NCBI RefSeq assembly: GCF_000803215.1
Contig: NZ_JSXC01000034.1
Location: 124,001-188,000 of the forward strand
DNA length: 64,000 bases
Source of the DNA: Pectobacterium fontis
GTDB lineage: Bacteria > Pseudomonadota > Gammaproteobacteria > Enterobacterales > Enterobacteriaceae
Reading direction: 5' to 3'
A program made the position numbers and the translations under genes. Numbering within the stretch: the first letter of the stretch is position 1; the number at the start of each line of letters is the position of its first letter. This document shows, one piece after another, positions 40,362 through 52,640 of the stretch. The notes beneath the pieces are model-generated. The model searched no databases. It was given only the letters and a program-made list of their open reading frames with translations, and had not been told where the DNA came from.

Positions 40362-42926
40362 CTAAAGCATTTTCTTTAGTTGATACAACCAGTCCAGTGC
40401 CTGACGCGGTGTGAGCGTATCAGGATCGATGGCTTCCAGCGCTTCAATGGCCGGTGACGGTTCATCATTGCTCAGTAGCGCCAACTGCGCGCCGTCGATA
40501 TGGCTGGATGACGCATTATTCGATAGCGTTTCCAGTTCTTTCAATTTCTGGCGTGCGCGCTTAATCACGTCTTTCGGTACGCCAGCCAAAGCGGCGACGG
40601 CAAGCCCGTAACTCTTGCTGGCGGCACCATCCTGTACGCTGTGCATAAAGGCGATGGTATCGCCGTGTTCGCGCGCATCTAAATGGACATTCACCACACC
40701 TTCCATTTTTTCTGGCAGCGTGGTGAGTTCAAAGTAGTGTGTGGCGAATAGCGTCATCGCTTTGATGCGGTTTGCCAGATTTTCGGCGCAGGCCCACGCC
40801 AGCGACAGGCCATCATAGGTTGAGGTGCCGCGCCCGATTTCGTCCATCAATACCAGACTGTTTTCTGTAGCGTTATGCAAAATATTTGCCGTTTCCGTCA
40901 TTTCCACCATGAAGGTGGAGCGGCCAGACGCTAAATCGTCTGCTGCACCCACTCGGGTGAAAATGCGATCAATCGGGCCAATAACCGCCTGATCCGCAGG
41001 CACAAAGCAGCCGATGTGCGCCATCAGCACAATCAGTGCAGCCTGACGCATATAAGTACTTTTACCGCCCATGTTGGGGCCGGTGATAATCAGCATGCGA
41101 CGCTGTGGCGACAGCGCCAGCGGGTTAGAGATAAACGGCTCACGCAGCACCTGTTCGACGACAGGGTGACGACCGCCGGTGATTTTGATACCGGGTTTAT
41201 CGCTCAGCGTCGGGCAGACGTAATTCAGCGTATCGGCACGCTCGGCCAGATTCGTCAGGACATCCAGTTCGGCTAACGCGGCTGCACTTTGCTGAAGCTC
41301 CGCCAAATGAGGCAGCAGCAGGTCGAAAAGTTCATCATAGAGTGCCTTTTCCAGCGCCAGCGCCTTGCCTTTCGAGGTCAGAACTTTGTCTTCGTACTCT
41401 TTCAACTCAGGGATGATATAGCGTTCGGCATTTTTCAGCGTCTGGCGGCGTACATAGTGAATCGGCACCAGATGGCTTTGACCCCGGCTAACCTGAATGT
41501 AATAGCCGTGTACGCCATTGAAGCCGACTTTCAGCGTATCCAGCCCCAGCTTTTCACGTTCGCGAATTTCCAGACGGTCCAAATAATCGCTGGCACCGTC
41601 AGCCAGCGCGCGCCATTCATCCAGCTCTGCATGGTAGCCCGGTGCAATCACGCCACCATCACGTACCAGCACGGGTGGTGCTTCGACCATGGCGCGCTCC
41701 AGTAAATCGCGCAATTCATCAAATTGTCCAACCAAGCTGACCAGACGACGGACTGAATCCGTTTCCAGCGGTGCAAGCTGTTCACGAATAGCGGGAAATT
41801 GCTGGAAAGCATGGCGCATACGTGCCAGATCGCGCGGGCGCGCCGTGCGCAACGCAAGCCGTGCCAGAATACGTTCTAAATCGCCGACTTGTCGCAGAGA
41901 GGGTTGTAGATCGGGAGCAATGTCCCGCAATGCGCTGATAGCCTGCTGACGCTGCCTGAGTGTATCTGTATCGCGGCTGGGCATGTGTATCCAGCGCTTC
42001 AGCATGCGGCTGCCCATTGCCGTCACGGTACAGTCCAGCACCGCAGCCAACGTATTTTCCACACCACCGGATAGATTCTGCGTCAGTTCAAGGTTACGGC
42101 GGGTAGCCGCATCCATGATGATACCGTCCTGCTGGCGCTCCATCGTTATTCCGCGAATGTGCGGCAGCGACGTGCGCTGCGTGTCTTTTGCGTATTGCAG
42201 CAAACATCCGGCGGCTCGCAGCGCGAGCTGTGCCTGCTCTACACCGAAACCGGTCAGATCGCGGGTGCCGAATTGCAGGTTGAGCTGCTGACGTGCGGTA
42301 TCGGGTTCAAATTCCCACAGTGGGCGACGACGCAGCCCATGACGATTTTCGATCAAATCCATAGACTCAAAGGATTCAGGATAAAGCAATTCTGCCGGGT
42401 TGGTACGCTGCAATTCGGCCGCCATGGTTTCCCTATCGGCAGGCTCGCTCACGCGAAAGCGTCCAGAACTGATATCTAAGGTGGCATAACCGAATCCCCG
42501 GCTGTCCTGCCAGAGCGCGGCGAGCAGGTTATCCTGTTTCTCCTGCAATAGTGCTTCGTCGCTGATGGTTCCCGGCGTGACGATGCGTACCACTTTACGC
42601 TCTACAGGCCCTTTGCTGGTGGCGGGATCGCCGATTTGCTCACAGATAGCAACGGATTCGCCCATTTGCACCAGTCTGGCAAGGTAGTTCTCCACGGCAT
42701 GATGAGGAACGCCCGCCATCGGTATTGGTTCCCCAGCGGAAGCGCCGCGCTTTGTCAGCGAAATATCCAGTAATTGAGAAGCCCGCTTGGCATCGTCATA
42801 GAACAGTTCGTAAAAATCGCCCATGCGGTAAAACAGCAGAATTTCTGGATGTTCAGCCTTTAGCCTAAAGTACTGTTGCATCATCGGCGTATGGGCGGTG
42901 AAGTCCTTCTCTGTGGCTTCATTCAT
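40362..42926 (-). CDS. mutS: DNA mismatch repair protein MutS
   Basis: Mismatch-recognition ATPase. 854 residues. The mismatch-wedging motif FYE is at residues 38-40 ([10 protein letters not shown]). The Walker A is in [16 protein letters not shown] (about residue 615), with [12 protein letters not shown] as Walker B. A C-terminal tetramerisation tail [17 protein letters not shown] is present. The gene is intact, but its first 18 codons and its 5' flank are part of a 651-bp direct repeat and abut an integrase remnant (see separate entries). The coding start may therefore have been supplied by an integrating element. Confidence 0.97.
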
Positions 42927-43521
42927 ATTGATTTTACTCAGTTTTTACTCTATCTGTTAGCTCAGGTGACCGCGTGTAAAACCGTCAAAAACTCACCTAA
43001 ACCCATAAATTTGTATACTAATAAGATGCGTTACACATCCAGTCTGGCTGGTTATACATTAAGATTGCATCGATAAAAATGACACTCAATCCGCCTATTA
43101 TAATCAATAAGTTATCGATTGATGTGAAGCCTGCCTTCGATCCCGAAGGGCGTGTCATCTATGTTCCTAACCCAGCACGAAAGCCCTATCTTATCACCGA
43201 TAATTACCGTGATTAACCCGCAGGTTTTGGGGTAAAAATCAGCGGCACAAAAAAAAACTATATCATCCAGCGCCGTGTGGATTCCGGTCAACGAACAGCA
43301 ACCGGAGGAAAAGCACCACAGGACGTTATCAGAGCCACGATTGGAAATGTATCTGATTTTGCCACTATCGATCAGGCACGCGAAACGGCTCGCAACTTTG
43401 CTCAGACGATGAAACAAACGAAGCGCAGCCCGAATGCTATCAGAAAAGAAATCAACGTTGCCGAACTGACGATGAGTGAAGTGTTCGCCCAATACCGTAA
43501 TCACCTGCTTGGCAGAACCAA
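42871..43521. repeat. Direct repeat copy 1: mutS 5' end, flank and integrase start
   Basis: About 651 bp nearly identical to 47512-48163, with scattered substitutions and one 1-base indel near 43020. It covers codons 1-18 of mutS, the 150-bp mutS/integrase divergent region and the first ~440 bp of the integrase pseudogene. Interpreted as an integration-site repeat. Confidence 0.9.
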
Positions 43522-45632: not shown

Positions 45633-46112
45633 ATGGCTAACATTATATATCTAACCCTTACAGGCGAAAAACAAGGATTGATATCTTCAGGTTGCTCTAC
45701 ATTTGATTCAATCGGGAATAGGTATCAAAGCGGTCATGAAGATGAAATATTTACTCTGGCATTACGACATACCATTACACGCGATCAACATGTTAAACAT
45801 AATCCTGTTGAAATAATAAAACTAATTGACAAATCCTCTCCCTTATTAGGGATGTCTGTATCAGATAATGAAATTTTAAAATGTGTCTTTGATATTTACA
45901 GAGGAACTCCTGAAGGAGTATTGAAAAAATACTACACTATAAAGCTTAACGATGCATCCATAGCTAACATTTCAATTGATTATCCTCATTCTCTTACTCA
46001 TGCAGATAAGCAACCACATGAGATGGTGCTTTTCTACTATAAAGATATTACATGGACTAACCATGCTACGGGGACATCTGGTTATAGTTTATGGGAAGAA
46101 CGCATATATTAA
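45633..46112 (+). CDS. Hcp-family type VI secretion protein
   Basis: 159 residues, starting MANIIYLTLTGEKQGLISSG with CSTFDSIGNRYQSGHEDEIF, LALRHTITRDQHVKHNP and SSPLLGMSVSDNEILKCVFD. This is the Hcp tube-protein pattern of the subgroup that is often paired with or fused to toxins in enterobacteria. It forms hexameric rings and carries or is the T6SS effector (family knowledge). RBS AAGGAATAATCG. AT-rich compared with the core genome. Its stop overlaps the stop of the convergent immunity-like gene. No other T6SS structural gene is in the window, so it is an orphan hcp. Confidence 0.85.
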   Translation: MANIIYLTLTGEKQGLISSGCSTFDSIGNRYQSGHEDEIFTLALRHTITRDQHVKHNPVEIIKLIDKSSPLLGMSVSDNEILKCVFDIYRGTPEGVLKKYYTIKLNDASIANISIDYPHSLTHADKQPHEMVLFYYKDITWTNHATGTSGYSLWEERIY

Positions 46113-46522
46113 TAATCAATAAGATTTTTTACTCCAATAATTAAACTTTCCATTGTCGGGATATCTATGTATGATATCCCACGAACATAAGTATCAGAAC
46201 GAATATCCGTGTGTAAAGTATACTCTACACAATATGTTTCAGAGTCATTTTTCTCAAAATTTAATGAAACCATATTTTCATTGGGTGAGAACAAATAATC
46301 CGCAGGGGATCCATTGTTTTTTATTTCAGTTAGCTTGTTATGCAACTCTTTTAAATCAGAGATATAGCATCCCCATTCTGCATTAAACTTAATCCCCTTG
46401 GTTGTAAGTTCGATATACATTTTTAACCAAGCATCATAAGCGGTATCCTGCATATCCTCATTTTTTATCTTCTCAATGGGATATATGTTAATTTCAGTAT
46501 CTACATCTCGTATATTAACCAT
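46109..46522 (-). CDS. Putative immunity protein
   Basis: 137-residue acidic soluble protein (VNIRDVDTEINIYPIEKI..., AEWGCYISDLKELHNKLTEI) with no signal peptide. I do not recognise its family. It begins 9 bases after the candidate toxin gene on the same strand, is low GC, and has the size and position expected of a cognate immunity protein; function is inferred from position only. Confidence 0.55.
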   Translation of the reverse strand: MVNIRDVDTEINIYPIEKIKNEDMQDTAYDAWLKMYIELTTKGIKFNAEWGCYISDLKELHNKLTEIKNNGSPADYLFSPNENMVSLNFEKNDSETYCVEYTLHTDIRSDTYVRGISYIDIPTMESLIIGVKNLIDY

Positions 46523-46531
46523 AAAACCACC

Positions 46532-47239
46532 TTATTTATACATGTAATGGGTTATTGTCCAGTTTCTTTCATCGACGACCACTTCTAAAGTATAGTCTTT
46601 ATTTTCATATTTATTGTTTTTTTTATCGAATCTTGAACGGGTCATTTTTATTTCGTACCTTTTTAAAACCCTGTCTGATTTTCCTTTTAAGTCTTTACCT
46701 CGTTTCCCAAAACGTATTGCTTTTTCCAGAATGTAAACAGGAACATACCGTTCTGGCTCCCTCATATGTGTCGCTGTTGCTGATGTAAATTTTATACTTC
46801 TCGGTGAAAGTCCTATCTTTAGTCGGCCTCTCAATGAAGATATAATATTTTCGCTTAATCTGATCGAAAGGTTTTTTACAATTCCATTTCTTGTTGTTAT
46901 TTTAAATAAATTGCTGGCACCCTTTAATGATTTCCCTACAATAAATCCAAATAGAATTATGTCCAGAGGATCGAAGATAGGTGATTCAAGTGGAATTTCA
47001 TGCAGTGTGACAAACTTTCCATTTATATCATAAATATTATAGACTCCACCTCTGGATTGACCTATGTAACCGATACATAAGCCAGTTTCCTCATCAATAA
47101 TTGGCGAGGTTCCAGGAGGAAGTAGTTCTTCTGGTTTAATTGAGAAAAACTCATTTATGTCCAATGGAGAATTGAAGTCGTAAATCCGACCAGAATCCTC
47201 AAAATCCAGATATCCATTTTTATCTAATAAATCATCCAT
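46532..47239 (-). CDS. Candidate toxin/effector with C-terminal RNase-like domain
   Basis: 235 residues. N-terminal half: acidic segment, then CIGYIGQSRGGVYNIYD, SPIFDPLDIILFGFIVGKSLK (a hydrophobic, glycine-rich stretch often seen before polymorphic toxin domains). C-terminal 85 residues, ATHMREPERYVPVYILEKAI..., RYEIKMT..., LEVVVDERNWTITHYMYK, have the spacing of DUF4258/BECR-fold ribonuclease toxins: an early histidine (H158), helix, then strands ending in VV.DE...I.H. RBS ATAGGAGATAG. Toxin activity is inferred, not shown. Confidence 0.55.
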   Translation of the reverse strand: MDDLLDKNGYLDFEDSGRIYDFNSPLDINEFFSIKPEELLPPGTSPIIDEETGLCIGYIGQSRGGVYNIYDINGKFVTLHEIPLESPIFDPLDIILFGFIVGKSLKGASNLFKITTRNGIVKNLSIRLSENIISSLRGRLKIGLSPRSIKFTSATATHMREPERYVPVYILEKAIRFGKRGKDLKGKSDRVLKRYEIKMTRSRFDKKNNKYENKDYTLEVVVDERNWTITHYMYK

Positions 47240-47511: not shown

Positions 47512-47567
47512 TACTGCTGCATCATCGGTGTATAGGCGGTGAAGTCCTTCTCTGTGGCTTCATTCAT
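47512..47567 (-). pseudogene. mutS 5' fragment (18 codons)
   Basis: Reads [18 protein letters not shown] on the minus strand from the ATG at 47565-47567, against [18 protein letters not shown] in intact mutS. Three differences in 56 bases, one changing His to Tyr. It then breaks off into unrelated sequence. Most simply an attachment-site remnant. Confidence 0.85.
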
Positions 47568-48163
47568 ATTGATTTTACTCAGTTTTTACTCTATCTGTTA
47601 GCTCAGGTGACCGCTTATAAAACCGTCAAAAACTCACCTAAACCCATAAATTTGTATACTATATAAGATGCGGTACACATCCAGTCTGGCTGGTTATACA
47701 TTAAGATTGCATCGATAAAAATGACACTCAACCCGCCTATTATAATCAATAAGTTATCGATTGATGTGAAGCCTGCCTTCGATCCCGAAGGGCGTATCAT
47801 CTATGTTCCTAACCCAGCACGAAAGCCCTATCTTATCACCGATAATTACCGTGATTAACCCGCAGGTTTTGGGGTAAAAATCAGTGGCACAAAAAAAACC
47901 TACATCATCCAGCGCCGTGTGGATTCCGGTCAACGAACAGCAACTGGAGGAAAAGCACCACAGGACGTTAGCAGAGCCACGATTGGAAATGTATCTGATT
48001 TTGCCACTATCGATCAGGCACGCGAAACGGCTCGCAACTTTGCTCAGACGATGAAACAAACGAAGCGCAGCCCGAATGCTATCAGAAAAGAAATCAATGT
48101 TGCCGAACTGACTATTAGTGAAGTGTTCGCTCAATACCGTAATCACCTGCTTGGCAGAACTAA
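47512..48163. repeat. Direct repeat copy 2: mutS 5' remnant, flank and integrase start
   Basis: About 652 bp; same content as 42871-43521. The 5' edge is abrupt: AT-rich DNA ends at 47511 and the match to mutS starts at 47512. Confidence 0.9.
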
Positions 48164-48263: not shown

Positions 48264-48603
48264 TGGGCGTAATTTTTCTGGTGATTATTATAATTCCTAT
48301 ATAATTACAGGGGTGAAACTATTTAGTTTGAAGTTATTTAAATAATTATTATTTTCTGACATGTATCAAGTTGTTTTTGCATTGATTGAGTTATCTGTTA
48401 CCTGGCTGTTTATTCCGGGTGACGGTATGGAGAGCGGATTTCATTATATTTAAATTCAATTATTAGCAATGTAAATAAAAATACTGAATATGTCTTTCAG
48501 TATTTTTTTTGTGCTTGTTTAAGGGTTTTGTTTTATTGTCTTTCCACCGCGGTATAGCGTTAATTTTTATTTCATGTAAGTTAATGAGGTTATTTTAGAT
48601 ATA
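48264..48603. other. AT-rich gap upstream of the isonitrile operon
   Basis: 340 bases. Very AT-rich, holds a terminator-like hairpin at 48476-48510 and then the presumed promoter/leader of the isonitrile operon. No ORF and no third copy of the mutS repeat was seen. Confidence 0.6.
48476..48510 (+). terminator. Terminator-like hairpin before the isonitrile synthase gene
   Basis: AAATACTGAA-tatgtct-TTCAGTATTTTTTTT. Strong intrinsic terminator form with no intact gene upstream on this strand. It insulates the operon from integrase-side transcription, or acts as a leader attenuator. Confidence 0.75.
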
Positions 48604-49590
48604 ATGAATAGTGAATTAGTTTCATCGGTAATATTAAATGAGTTAATGCAGTATCGGCGTAAATTCATCCATTCGTCGAAATCAGTGAGTGAAGAAGAGT
48701 CACAGGTGACTCAGGTACAATTACCGAGAATTCGTGCTTTTGTTGAAAAAAATCGTCGCATTGAACTCATTCTACCTGCATTTCCGGTTAAATCTCCCAG
48801 CCCTTATAAGGTATTGGGGAGAATGCCGGATATGGCAGAGCGTTTGTCTCTGATATTTCTGAATTCGTTATGCCAGCGTATTCAGCTTTATTATCCACCG
48901 GGTGCACATATCCGTATTTGTTCGGATGGACATGTATTTGGCGATCTGATTGGGACAAGTGACGAAACAATTAACACCTATCAAGATGAAATAGAAAACT
49001 TATTGAATGAGCTAGGTGCCATTCATCTTAGCGTCTTTAATCTTAAGGATGTTGAGAATATGGCCGCACTTACTACTGACTATGATCATCTCCGCCAGCA
49101 GTTGGTTAAGGATTACGCTGAATCAGAAGAGGAGATCAAGGCGCAGCTAATGCAGAGTGAGGAAGGCTTGCAGCTTTATCGTTCGATCACTCGTTTTCTC
49201 TATGAAGATAGTCTGCGGCCCGACTATACCGGCTCTCATGCGGCCTTACAGAAAGATGCCAAAAAACGTGCGTGTGGCGTTATTCAACGCAGTTGGGCGT
49301 GGGGCAATTTGCTTGCCGAAAATTTCCCAGACGCGATCCGTTTGTCTATTCATCCTCAACCTTCGGACAGCCTGAAGATAGGTATTCATATGATGCCCAC
49401 CAAAGATGACTGGTTGACACCTTGGCATGGTGTTGCTGCTAATGTTAACGGGCAATTTGTGCTTATGAAAAATACCGATGCACAGCAGTTGGACGGTGAA
49501 ATTGTGGAGATCCGCGGTACACCTAGCCATTACTTAATTAAACAGCCTGATATGGCATCAGCATATTCTTCTCGTTCAGCGAGACATTAA
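48604..49590 (+). CDS. isnA: Isonitrile (isocyanide) synthase, PvcA/IsnA family
   Basis: 328-residue member of the DIT1/PvcA family, which converts the amine of an aromatic amino acid (tyrosine or tryptophan) to an isonitrile with a C1 unit from ribulose 5-phosphate. Seen: ILPAFPVKSPSPYKVLGRMP (residues 56-75), the IRICSDGHVFGDLIG block (104-118), and AIRLSIHPQP near residue 245. Followed after 29 bases by the dioxygenase. A weak ribosome binding site (GAGG, 14 bases away) precedes the ATG. Lower GC than the core. The substrate cannot be read from sequence alone; tyrosine is suggested by the downstream glycosyltransferase. Confidence 0.88.
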   Translation: MNSELVSSVILNELMQYRRKFIHSSKSVSEEESQVTQVQLPRIRAFVEKNRRIELILPAFPVKSPSPYKVLGRMPDMAERLSLIFLNSLCQRIQLYYPPGAHIRICSDGHVFGDLIGTSDETINTYQDEIENLLNELGAIHLSVFNLKDVENMAALTTDYDHLRQQLVKDYAESEEEIKAQLMQSEEGLQLYRSITRFLYEDSLRPDYTGSHAALQKDAKKRACGVIQRSWAWGNLLAENFPDAIRLSIHPQPSDSLKIGIHMMPTKDDWLTPWHGVAANVNGQFVLMKNTDAQQLDGEIVEIRGTPSHYLIKQPDMASAYSSRSARH

Positions 49591-49619
49591 TATTCTCATC
49601 TTATAAAGGAATATACACG

Positions 49620-50471
49620 ATGGAAAATAGCATTAATTGTCGTATTGAGCCGCTTTCCCCTTTTGGCGCGTTGCTGATGCCCATTGAAGCGGGGCAGAAT
49701 ATTGCGACCTTGCCGATTGACACACTGCGTGAGTTGGCTCGTGAGCATCATCTTCTGGTACTGCGTGGGTTTACTTCTGGATTCTCTGATCCTGCAACGT
49801 TGACCGAGTATGCAGGCAACTGGGGGGAAATCATGATGTGGCCTTTCGGAGCTGTACTGGACGTCAAGGAGCATACGGATACCAAGGATCATATCTTTGA
49901 TAACAGCTACGTACCGCTACACTGGGACGGGATGTACAAACCAACCATACCCGAGTTTCAGCTATTCCACTGCGTTTCTGCGCCGGGACACGATCAAGGT
50001 GGACGTACCACCTTTGTCGATACCACGCGTTTGTTGGCAGAGGCTGACGCGAAGTTAGTTGATGAGTGGCGACGTGTTTCAATCACTTACCGTATTAAGG
50101 CCGTTGTGCATTACGGTGGCGAGGTGACCTCTCCACTGGTTATTCCTCATCCTAACGGTCAGGGGGAGATCATGCGTTATAACGAGCCGCCGACTGAAGG
50201 GGAGCGTTTCCTTAACCAGCATACGCTCGAATATCATCATGTTACGCCGGAAGCACAAGGCGCATTTAGCCAGACCTTACGGCAACATTTGTACGATCCC
50301 CGTTACTATTATGCGCACCAATGGCTACAGGGGGATGTGGTGATCGCTGACAACTTCTCGTTACTGCATGGACGTGAAGCCTTTACGGCACAGTCGGCTC
50401 GTCACCTGCAACGTGTGCATATTCAAGGCACTCCGATTTACGTCAACACCTGTATTGATAACGCGGCATAA
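49620..50471 (+). CDS. isnB: Fe(II)/2-oxoglutarate dioxygenase, PvcB/IsnB family
   Basis: 283-residue TauD-like oxygenase with the iron triad H101 and D103 in PLHWDGMY and the distal H250 in SLLHGREAF; R261 likely binds 2-oxoglutarate. In PvcB/IsnB systems it desaturates and decarboxylates the amino-acid isonitrile to a vinyl isonitrile. Starts with AAAGGAATATACACG before ATG and is followed 11 bases later by the glycosyltransferase. Confidence 0.9.
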   Translation: MENSINCRIEPLSPFGALLMPIEAGQNIATLPIDTLRELAREHHLLVLRGFTSGFSDPATLTEYAGNWGEIMMWPFGAVLDVKEHTDTKDHIFDNSYVPLHWDGMYKPTIPEFQLFHCVSAPGHDQGGRTTFVDTTRLLAEADAKLVDEWRRVSITYRIKAVVHYGGEVTSPLVIPHPNGQGEIMRYNEPPTEGERFLNQHTLEYHHVTPEAQGAFSQTLRQHLYDPRYYYAHQWLQGDVVIADNFSLLHGREAFTAQSARHLQRVHIQGTPIYVNTCIDNAA

Positions 50472-50482
50472 GGAAAAGCATC

Positions 50483-51778
50483 ATGGCACATATTCTCATG
50501 GCGGCGATGGCAACGCCGGGTCACGTTTACCCACTGCTGACCATTGCTCGCTATTTGGTTGAACAAGGGAACGACGTCACGCTATTTAGCGGCGCGTTAT
50601 TCCGTGAGCAGGCAGAGGCCGCTGGCGTCGGGTTTATCCCTTTTAGCGCTGAAATTGATTTTGACTACAGGCACCTTGAGCAGCATTTTCCGCAGCGTGG
50701 CATGTTGCCACCGGGGAACGCGCAGATGGCGCTGGCCCTGAAGGATTTCTTTGCTGCACCGATTCCATTATTGGATCGCCAATTGCGTGATGCGCTGACA
50801 AAAAGCAATGCCGATTTGCTAATGGTTGAAAACTGTTTTTATGGTGTTTTGCCGCTACTGCTTTCTGAGAGTCGGCCCCCCGTTATTGCCATCGGTGTTA
50901 CGCCTTTGTCCTATTCAACGCGAGATTCAGTTTTCTATGGGCCGCGCATTCCGCCTAAATTGCTGCCACCAGACCTGAGCCATGAACAGCTTGTCGATGA
51001 AGAAACGCGCAGATTGATGAACGAGGTTCAGCACGCGTTTAATCTTGCGATGGTGCAATCGGGAGGAAAACCGCTTGAGCGACCTTTTATGGATACGCTG
51101 ATTGGTCATTGTGATCGTTTCTTGCAGTTATCCACCACTGAAGTTGAGTATCGGCGTGACGATTTGCCACACAGTGTACGGTTTGTCGGGCCATTATCGC
51201 ACCACGTCGCAGCAGAACGTGTTCCGCAATGGTGGGCACCTGACGACAGTCGACCGCTTATTATCGTTTCGCAAGGAACATTGGCGAATGTCGATCTCCA
51301 GCAGTTGATCGGGCCAACACTGCGTGCATTGGCTGATTTACCCGTCAGAGTACTGGCTACCACGGGCGGCCGAGCGGTGGATTCGCTGCAAGCTTCCTTG
51401 CCTGAAAATGCCAGAGTGGTGAGTTTCCTCTCTTATGGCGATTGGCTACCGACGGCGTCGATAGTCATCACGAATGGTGGATACGGCTCGATTAATTCTG
51501 CGCTGAAAGATGGTGTTCCGTTGATTGTGGCTGGGGTCGGGGAAGATAAGCAGGAAGGGGCTGCACGCGTAGTGTTCGCTAAATGTGGGATTAACCTGCA
51601 AACCAGTACGCCGAGTGAAGAGCAGATCAAACAAGCTGTGATTGAGATATTGGAAGATCCGGGCTACGCGCGGCGTGCCACTTGGATTAAGGCAGATTAT
51701 GCCCGTTATGATGCATTTGCTCTGATTAATGCTGAAGTGAATGCGTTGTGTCCACAAGGGGAGAGCCGCGTAGCATAA
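50483..51778 (+). CDS. UDP-glycosyltransferase (GT1, MGT type)
   Basis: 431-residue GT-B enzyme. The N-terminal ATPGHVYPLLTIARYL holds the catalytic histidine (H14) of GT1 enzymes. The C-terminal half has VSFLSYGDWLP and ITNGGYGSINSALKDGVPLI (about residues 310-350), the nucleotide-sugar binding region seen in macrolide and flavonoid glycosyltransferases. In the isnA-isnB-GT context its likely role is to glycosylate the phenol of a tyrosine-derived vinyl isonitrile, as in rhabduscin synthesis. The sugar donor cannot be told from sequence. Confidence 0.88.
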   Translation: MAHILMAAMATPGHVYPLLTIARYLVEQGNDVTLFSGALFREQAEAAGVGFIPFSAEIDFDYRHLEQHFPQRGMLPPGNAQMALALKDFFAAPIPLLDRQLRDALTKSNADLLMVENCFYGVLPLLLSESRPPVIAIGVTPLSYSTRDSVFYGPRIPPKLLPPDLSHEQLVDEETRRLMNEVQHAFNLAMVQSGGKPLERPFMDTLIGHCDRFLQLSTTEVEYRRDDLPHSVRFVGPLSHHVAAERVPQWWAPDDSRPLIIVSQGTLANVDLQQLIGPTLRALADLPVRVLATTGGRAVDSLQASLPENARVVSFLSYGDWLPTASIVITNGGYGSINSALKDGVPLIVAGVGEDKQEGAARVVFAKCGINLQTSTPSEEQIKQAVIEILEDPGYARRATWIKADYARYDAFALINAEVNALCPQGESRVA

Positions 51779-51968
51779 GGTATTGCCTGTTTCGTGGATG
51801 ATGCGCACATTGGGAGTGAATGTTTGTCTGGTAAAGCAAACGAAAAACGCTCAGGCGTTCTGGTCATTGCGTTTGATCATGATGTAGAAGGATGTGAATT
51901 CAATCCCAAAGATCAATAATTGCGATCGTTAGGGGGAAGTCAACATCATCATCCCAATGTTGTTAAAA

Positions 51969-51998
51969 ATAAGGAGCTGCCATACGCAGCTCCTTTGT
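51969..51998. terminator. Terminator between the glycosyltransferase and grxB
   Basis: AAAGGAGCTGC-catac-GCAGCTCCTTT with T-rich sequence on both sides; serves the convergent operon and grxB. Confidence 0.8.
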
Positions 51999-52004
51999 CA
52001 TTTT

Positions 52005-52640
52005 TTACCGTGCTTTATCCGTCAACAGGGCAACCTGGCTGGCTGTCGAGATGCGATCAAGGTAGGCTCGGACGTTAGGGCCGAATTGAATACCTTTAAC
52101 GATTGTGAGCGACAGTAAGATCGGGAACAGAATAAAATCGGTGGTGGAAATGGGGCTGACGTTTGCTAAACGCGGTTCCAGCTCACCGAGTTTATGCTCG
52201 ACTTCCGCAATCAGTTCAGGGGTTTTTGCTAACAGTGCATCCAGATCGCCAAAGGCTTTTTCTTCGCGCTGGGTGTAGGCACGACGCGCCTCAGGTGTCG
52301 AAAGCTCTTTGAAATCGGCCTGTGTAAAGCGGGGAACCGCAAGGTTAAATACCGCGCTGGAAACAGATTTACACCAGGCTTCAATCTCAGCATCAACGGG
52401 TTTATCGGCGATTAACGGCGCCTGCTGGCTGTCGACATAATGCACGATATCCATACTTTCGGGCATAAAGCTGCCATCTTCTTTCTGTAGAATCGGCACC
52501 ACTTTGCGGCCTACCATGCGCGTTGGCGTATCGATATCACCTTCCATAATCACAGATTGCTCAACAGGCAGATTTTTCAGGCCAAAAATCATTCTGGCTC
52601 TGACACAGAATGGGCAGTGTTCATAAATGAAAAGTTTCAT
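52005..52640 (-). CDS. grxB: Glutaredoxin 2 GrxB
   Basis: 211-residue atypical glutaredoxin of GST fold. Active site CPFC in IYEHCPFCVRARM (residues 9-12), thioredoxin-like N-terminal domain, helical C-terminal domain (about 85-211). Reduces protein and low-molecular disulfides with glutathione. Family length about 215. Confidence 0.95.
   Translation of the reverse strand: MKLFIYEHCPFCVRARMIFGLKNLPVEQSVIMEGDIDTPTRMVGRKVVPILQKEDGSFMPESMDIVHYVDSQQAPLIADKPVDAEIEAWCKSVSSAVFNLAVPRFTQADFKELSTPEARRAYTQREEKAFGDLDALLAKTPELIAEVEHKLGELEPRLANVSPISTTDFILFPILLSLTIVKGIQFGPNVRAYLDRISTASQVALLTDKAR

Follow-up and report, generated by a model that had tools for sequence, protein, structure and literature searches.

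We analysed a 64,000-nucleotide stretch of the Pectobacterium fontis genome (contig NZ_JSXC01000034.1, positions 124,001 to 188,000; hereafter the window), which carries on its forward strand a three-gene operon predicted to make a glycosylated isonitrile from tyrosine. The first gene, isnA (48604..49590, 328 amino acids), encodes an L-tyrosine isonitrile synthase of the PvcA/Dit1 family. It is followed by isnB (49620..50471, 283 amino acids), for an Fe(II)/2-oxoglutarate-dependent decarboxylating desaturase of the PIsnB (vinyl isonitrile) type, and by a gene for a GT1-type glycosyltransferase (GT; 50483..51778, 431 amino acids) predicted to act on the phenol of the vinyl isonitrile. The first-pass annotation of the window had described a PvcA-type synthase, a PvcB-type Fe/2-oxoglutarate oxygenase with an intact HxD...H motif and a GT1 glycosyltransferase, spaced by 29 and 11 bases and with no transporter in the operon. 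Open reading frames (ORFs) and coordinates confirm this layout, Pfam and NCBIfam scans find no transporter among the three genes, and the matches given below bear out each family assignment. What can be read directly from the DNA is which genes are present, how they are ordered and spaced, the families they belong to and the predictive residues. The source assembly (4.15 Mb, 105 contigs) is one of the 25 genomes compared within the genus, where it is G000; comparisons across the wider set of loci (IsnA tree, oxygenase residues and neighbouring genes) cover the best 80 of 321 loci.

IsnA and IsnB resemble enzymes of tyrosine vinyl isonitrile synthesis

IsnA matches the Pfam family DIT1_PvcA (4.4e-84) and, alone among NCBIfam families, the L-tyrosine isonitrile synthase equivalog NF045653, at 628.4 bits for a cut-off of 600. 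Its matches in the PDB are 9dhm (447 bits) and the PvcA structure 3e59 (413 bits). In a tree of 79 rows, with no known tryptophan (indole isonitrile) enzyme among them, the window sequence joins the other five Pectobacterium rows at 100/100; in related Pectobacterium species, IsnA stretches are 88–95% identical to it. The sequence belongs to a starred branch with 59 rows (58 vinyl-type, one unassigned), outside which all eight PvcB-type rows fall. The first-pass annotation had held that grouping with tryptophan-specific or paerucumarin enzymes would count against its proposal; IsnA stands apart from the PvcB/paerucumarin-type rows and passes the tyrosine model.

IsnB matches TauD (6.5e-47) and has all three metal ligands, H101, D103 and H250. 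Its closest structure is 7tcl (388 bits), which is PIsnB of Photorhabdus according to the available passages of PMC9467999, and the second-best is PvcB (3eat, 282 bits). Those passages also give a residue rule by which vinyl-isonitrile formers have K or R at position 107 and N or H at 188, and isocyanoacrylate formers have Leu and Cys. The window enzyme has K107 and N188, the vinyl-isonitrile type, as do 68 of 81 aligned oxygenases (window IsnB, one copy of a second oxygenase, isnB2, from a sister genome, and 79 loci); nine are of the PvcB type and four of neither.

These residues bear on whether IsnB might form an isocyanoacrylate that cyclises to an isocyano-coumarin, as in a paerucumarin-like pathway. 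IsnA and IsnB are homologous to PvcA and PvcB of the Pseudomonas aeruginosa pvcABCD (paerucumarin) cluster, PvcB is the runner-up among structures for IsnB, and the two belong to one family. In the window, however, K107 and N188 stand in place of Leu and Cys, IsnA lies outside the PvcB-type groups, and the operon has a glycosyltransferase and no hydroxylase gene; it is the isnB2 of sister species that resembles PvcB. We consider a paerucumarin-like product most improbable.

The glycosyltransferase and its possible sugar donors

The third protein matches EryCIII-like_C (5.7e-18) and also UDPGT. It is 65–68% identical to the isnAB-linked glycosyltransferase in 12/12 Serratia loci and 53–56% identical in 19/19 Xenorhabdus loci, and the subfamily is also present in Aeromonas (5/5) and in some Pseudomonas isn loci. 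In 12 Photorhabdus loci the stretch examined contained no match to it; the Photorhabdus glycosyltransferase is reported, in the part of PMC6386379 available, to lie elsewhere. Among 43 sequences of at least 400 amino acids, 80 alignment columns are invariant, including H14 and the N331-G-G-Y-G motif.

The P. fontis genome holds genes of two sugar routes, wecD (339.9 over 195.1) and rmlD (367 over 224.05). The wecD route would supply an acetamido-deoxysugar donor, although its presence does not show use for this product, and rmlD makes a rhamnose donor possible. Rhabduscin, an inhibitor of insect phenoloxidase, is an amidoglycosyl vinyl isonitrile of tyrosine, and rhamnose is the sugar of byelyankacin.

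A predicted product of the rhabduscin/byelyankacin type

In the proposed pathway, IsnA would make tyrosine isonitrile by condensing L-tyrosine, through its amino nitrogen, with a carbon of ribulose-5-phosphate. IsnB would then abstract hydrogen from this intermediate and decarboxylate it to 4-hydroxystyryl (vinyl) isonitrile, the phenol of which GT would cap with a nucleotide-activated deoxysugar. The glycosylated product should bind copper in phenoloxidases or tyrosinases. We infer this chemistry from characterised relatives, and infer the sugar, release and target as well.

The tyrosine model, the vinyl-type residues, the glycosyltransferase subfamily and the position in the tree all agree with the rhabduscin/byelyankacin-type gene set named in the first-pass annotation. 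On this basis the operon very likely makes a glycosylated tyrosine vinyl isonitrile. Several points weigh against this assignment: IsnA clears the tyrosine cut-off with a margin of just 28 bits; the K107/N188 rule is correlative and not decisive, which also leaves some room for the paerucumarin-like product; the single changes K113L and N194C left the product of an Aeromonas homologue unaltered, according to the accessible passages of PMC9467999; and the choice of sugar is not readable from the glycosyltransferase sequence.

In gene set, order and enzyme families the operon is like the rhabduscin cluster of Xenorhabdus nematophila (itself not among the loci compared). The Xenorhabdus loci that were compared have PIsnB-type residues (K or R, and N) and a linked glycosyltransferase of one subfamily. 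Identity to these 19 loci is, however, just 67–72% for IsnA and 55–59% for IsnB, beside the 53–56% already given for GT, and the host here is a plant bacterium. As reported in parts of PMC6386379, the Xenorhabdus three-gene set yields rhabduscin in E. coli, and isnAB and GT mutants match the wild type in virulence towards Spodoptera; by analogy, the latter result would speak against a strong virulence role. Serratia has the same three genes in the same order in 12/12 loci (IsnA 75–77%, IsnB 72–75%, GT as above), but its loci lack a grxB, recA or mutS match within the 8 kb examined. A pvc cluster of Serratia marcescens, which may or may not be the same locus, gives ICDH-coumarin according to the portion of PMC5109203 available. 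The predicted product is also like byelyankacin of Enterobacter sp. B20, a glycosylated vinyl isonitrile made from the same intermediate (PMC9467999, in part).

The operon thus appears, from its sequence, to belong to the known rhabduscin/byelyankacin kind. A 2007 survey of isnA clusters by Brady is said to have possibly included Erwinia carotovora, and prior notice is possible. Among the open-access literature matches listed, no paper on an isonitrile cluster in Pectobacterium was found; term searches of PMC6963963, PMC10991766, PMC7824751 and PMC6813493 gave nothing on a Pectobacterium isonitrile, and the sole paerucumarin passage concerns Pseudomonas.

State of the operon across the genus

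isnA is present in 22/25 genomes of the genus. All three genes are open in 14 (G000, G149, G152-G154, G159-G163, G165, G166, G171 and G172). G151 has a broken GT, the isnA of G158 is divided between two contig ends, and G168 has broken frames in all three genes. The remaining five (G150, G156, G157, G164 and G167) have an open isnA, with isnB and GT reduced to fragments by deletion. No isnA was found at E 1e-20 in G155, G169 or G170. On rechecking, the isnA frame was open in 20/20 genomes examined (G158 and G168 left out). A clean loss in G170 was rejected, since a contig boundary interrupts its GT and the absence of isnA and isnB may reflect an assembly gap. Joint decay of isnA and isnB2 in G168 was rejected as well: mutS and an mscK-like gene have broken frames in that assembly too, and its broken frames (L051, L145, L176 and L177) are likely assembly indel errors.

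Across the genus isnA and isnB are under purifying selection. By pairwise counts, the method behind all selection estimates here, the mean ratio of nonsynonymous to synonymous change (dN/dS) is 0.052 for isnA (105 pairs, 15 genomes with isnB kept) and 0.055 for isnB (78 pairs, 13 genomes with a script-located start). A further point against the assignment is that the operon is dispensable, with no isnA found in 3/25 genomes, both isnB and GT lost from five, and a broken GT in G151.

A second, PvcB-type oxygenase in sister species

Searching the genus with IsnB revealed a second oxygenase gene, isnB2, at 47–49% identity in G150, G152, G153, G156, G157, G159, G160, G161, G164 and G167, and as pieces at 45–46% in G168. 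It is thus present in 11/25 genomes, the window genome not among them. The gene comes after a dlt-like set (dltD, B, A, C) and is itself directly followed by a flavin adenine dinucleotide (FAD) monooxygenase gene (NF005531, 848.3 over 530) in 10/10 intact cases, with pieces in G168; the pair occupies 8857-11189 in L142 and recurs in ten sister loci. The isnB2 protein of G150, the one copy of eleven in which the diagnostic positions were read, has L and C there, the PvcB type, and its closest structure is PvcB (3eat, 386 bits, versus 227 for PIsnB 7tcl). In ten examined of the fourteen genomes that lack isnB2, neither it nor the FAD gene was found at the dlt region. Only the isnB2–FAD pair is variable, since dltA occurs in 25/25 genomes and isnB2 in 11, which weakens the idea that the dlt-like genes are part of a second pathway.

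No pvcA was found beside the isnB2–FAD pair in a DIT1_PvcA family search of the genus genomes, which returned one full PvcA per genome, isnA. Apart from the pieces of the split genes in G158 and G168, the search picked up only weak partial extras at G153:C1:3303546-3303893 and G169:C2:2393115-2393537, each within a longer open frame (507 and 477 codons). Elsewhere, pvcA, an oxygenase and the same FAD gene occur together in L125, L131, L134 and L138, with PvcB-type residues in L125 only. Outside the genus, isnB2 has matches in 16/387 genomes of the family, all at 42–48%, the level of isnB itself, and in 0/368 other genomes of the class at E 1e-60; coverage of Pseudomonas and Burkholderia, both of which include PvcB-type genes, is thin in these sets.

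Retention of isnA alone coincides with isnB2

The first-pass annotation described the operon correctly but incompletely, for related species keep isnA without isnB and GT, always with a PvcB-type isnB2 in the genome. The isnA-only state occurs in 5/10 genomes with an intact isnB2 (5/11 with G168) versus 0/11 isnA bearers that lack it (Fisher p = 0.012; 0.035 when the poor assembly G168 is counted). All five isnA-only genomes carry isnB2, and no isnA-bearing genome without isnB2 has lost isnB. Judged by their junctions, three different deletions are involved, one common to G156, G157 and G167, one in G150 and one in G164. The isnA tree also puts the isnA-only genomes in three places, with G150 near G154 and G163, and G164 near G149 and G160; since this tree differs from that of mutS, the operon has moved by recombination. 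isnA itself is absent from 3/14 genomes without isnB2 versus 0/11 with it, a difference not significant in itself and given with no formal test.

These patterns would fit a role for IsnA as a hub for two far-apart pathways, its own rhabduscin-type operon and the pvcA-less pair of PvcB-type oxygenase and FAD monooxygenase. With no pvcA in its vicinity, this pair would need tyrosine isonitrile from isnA, and IsnA would act in the genus as a shared supplier. Where the pair exists, isnB and GT could be lost, with isnA held for the second product. We give this proposal an even chance. Presence, residues and deletions are observed; from these we infer the shared tyrosine isonitrile precursor.

Alternatively, isnA might be retained for a separate function, making free tyrosine isonitrile or N-formyl-tyrosine, with isnB2 acting on something else. 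A fungus makes tyrosine isonitrile as a stable natural product, according to the passages of PMC13005658 available, and the FAD monooxygenase family pairs with vinyl-type oxygenases elsewhere. The losses of isnB and the occurrences of isnB2 cluster in the same part of the mutS tree, so that their association may be one of shared ancestry. On the other hand, the isnA-only state occurs in 5/11 isnB2 genomes and 0/11 other isnA bearers, reached through three different deletions, and isnB2 belongs to the family that takes tyrosine isonitrile. We regard such a separate role as a serious but less favoured explanation.

The hub proposal itself meets several difficulties. Most isnB2 genomes, though not G160, group together in a region of the mutS tree with several weak forks. 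The association is thus a small one among genomes that are not independent, and to the extent of that dependence the Fisher values are too small. In G156, G157 and G167, which share a deletion, the noncoding remnant differs by 5–7%, whereas isnA synonymous sites differ by 16–28%. It follows that this deletion either came after the isnA split or was carried between genomes by recombination, and the low dN/dS of isnA may in large part predate it. In isnA-only genomes this ratio averages 0.077 (0.053–0.103, 10 pairs), compared with 0.052 in genomes that keep isnB. Nonsynonymous change in isnA is nonetheless two to three times slower than change in the remnant (Fisher 0.0096, 0.0008 and 0.074 for three non-independent pairs), which suggests constraint.

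Leader, flanks and integrity of the window operon

Some 100 bases 5′ of the isnA start lies a terminator-like palindrome (48477..48507, forward strand), an AT-rich 12-bp stem followed by T's, found by alignment and folding (−10.9 kcal/mol, z −3.14). It sits in a block that aligns in 21/21 genus loci, with the DNA farther upstream unalignable. A strict pattern recovers it in 19/21, the exceptions being the window and L035, which have different loops, and L032, L049 and L050 show, by eye, paired changes on both sides of the stem. It was not seen in 29 examined loci of other genera. Possible roles, judged by sequence, are those of an insulating terminator, an attenuator or an operator; an ARG-box reading was rejected, the spacing being off by one by eye. 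The true isnA start may differ from the annotated ATG. By eye, this ATG (start region 48588-48606) is far from the GAGG site, and several relatives have ATA or ATT at its position and a TTG four codons upstream that is better spaced from GAGG; L035 has an ATG, not TTG, a few codons upstream.

Directly after GT lies the 3′ remnant of a 140-amino-acid ORF (51779..51919, forward strand), recognised by comparison with sister species, several of which have it whole between GT and grxB. The full ORF has a signal-like N-terminus by eye, and its intact form has no Pfam or NCBIfam match. The operon had been said to end at a terminator. Hairpin scoring does place a terminator-like hairpin at 51971..51995, between the convergent GT and grxB, but it starts 193 bases past the GT stop, scores on both strands and could serve grxB as well as GT; the region has seven such sites, versus 4.2 expected in shuffles. 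The downstream neighbour grxB (52005..52640, reverse strand; NF007702, 274.9 over 133) is outside the pathway and adjoins the operon in 21/21 other genus loci reaching that far (L032-L051 and L053).

The operon had also been placed next to mutS, which is true only loosely. Although mutS (40362-42926, reverse strand; MutS domains) is in the same window, 5677 bases lie between it and isnA, containing transposase pieces (rve, HTH_Tnp_1), hcp, two orphan genes and a repeated ORF. Going by coordinates in three other genomes, the two genes are ~2.5 Mb apart on one contig in G152 and G164 and ~43 kb apart in G160. With debris between them and an arrangement that is not conserved, we rejected a functional link to mutS. 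A 98% direct repeat (42900-43320 and 47541-47962) that takes in the mutS 5′ end flanks ~4.6 kb of AT-rich DNA holding the transposase pieces, hcp and the two orphan genes, and this segment looks like an insertion at mutS. Within it, 45633-47239 carries a lone type VI secretion system tube gene, hcp (TIGR03344), and two opposite-strand genes with no Pfam or NCBIfam match, which by eye resemble an effector and immunity-like pair.

The AT-rich mobile debris directly upstream, the operon losses in sister genomes and the awkward position of the isnA ATG raise the question of whether the operon is decaying in P. fontis too, no longer expressed or useful. Xenorhabdus poinarii provides a precedent, having lost expression through a promoter insertion, as reported in part of PMC6386379. 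Yet the three frames are intact in the window, dN/dS is low across the genus and the leader palindrome is kept. Decay here seems unlikely, and the window operon is intact, ordinary and probably functional.

Implications for soft-rot bacteria

The operon brings chemistry of the tyrosinase/phenoloxidase-inhibitor type, whose study has centred on insect pathogens, to a genus of soft-rot plant bacteria and to most of its sampled species; plant copper oxidases or insect carriers are possible targets there. If the hub proposal is true, a biosynthetic pathway has been rewired across close species, with one isonitrile virulence or defence chemistry exchanged for another and the first enzyme kept. A cluster whose first enzyme lies in another operon would then be misread by gene-cluster tools.

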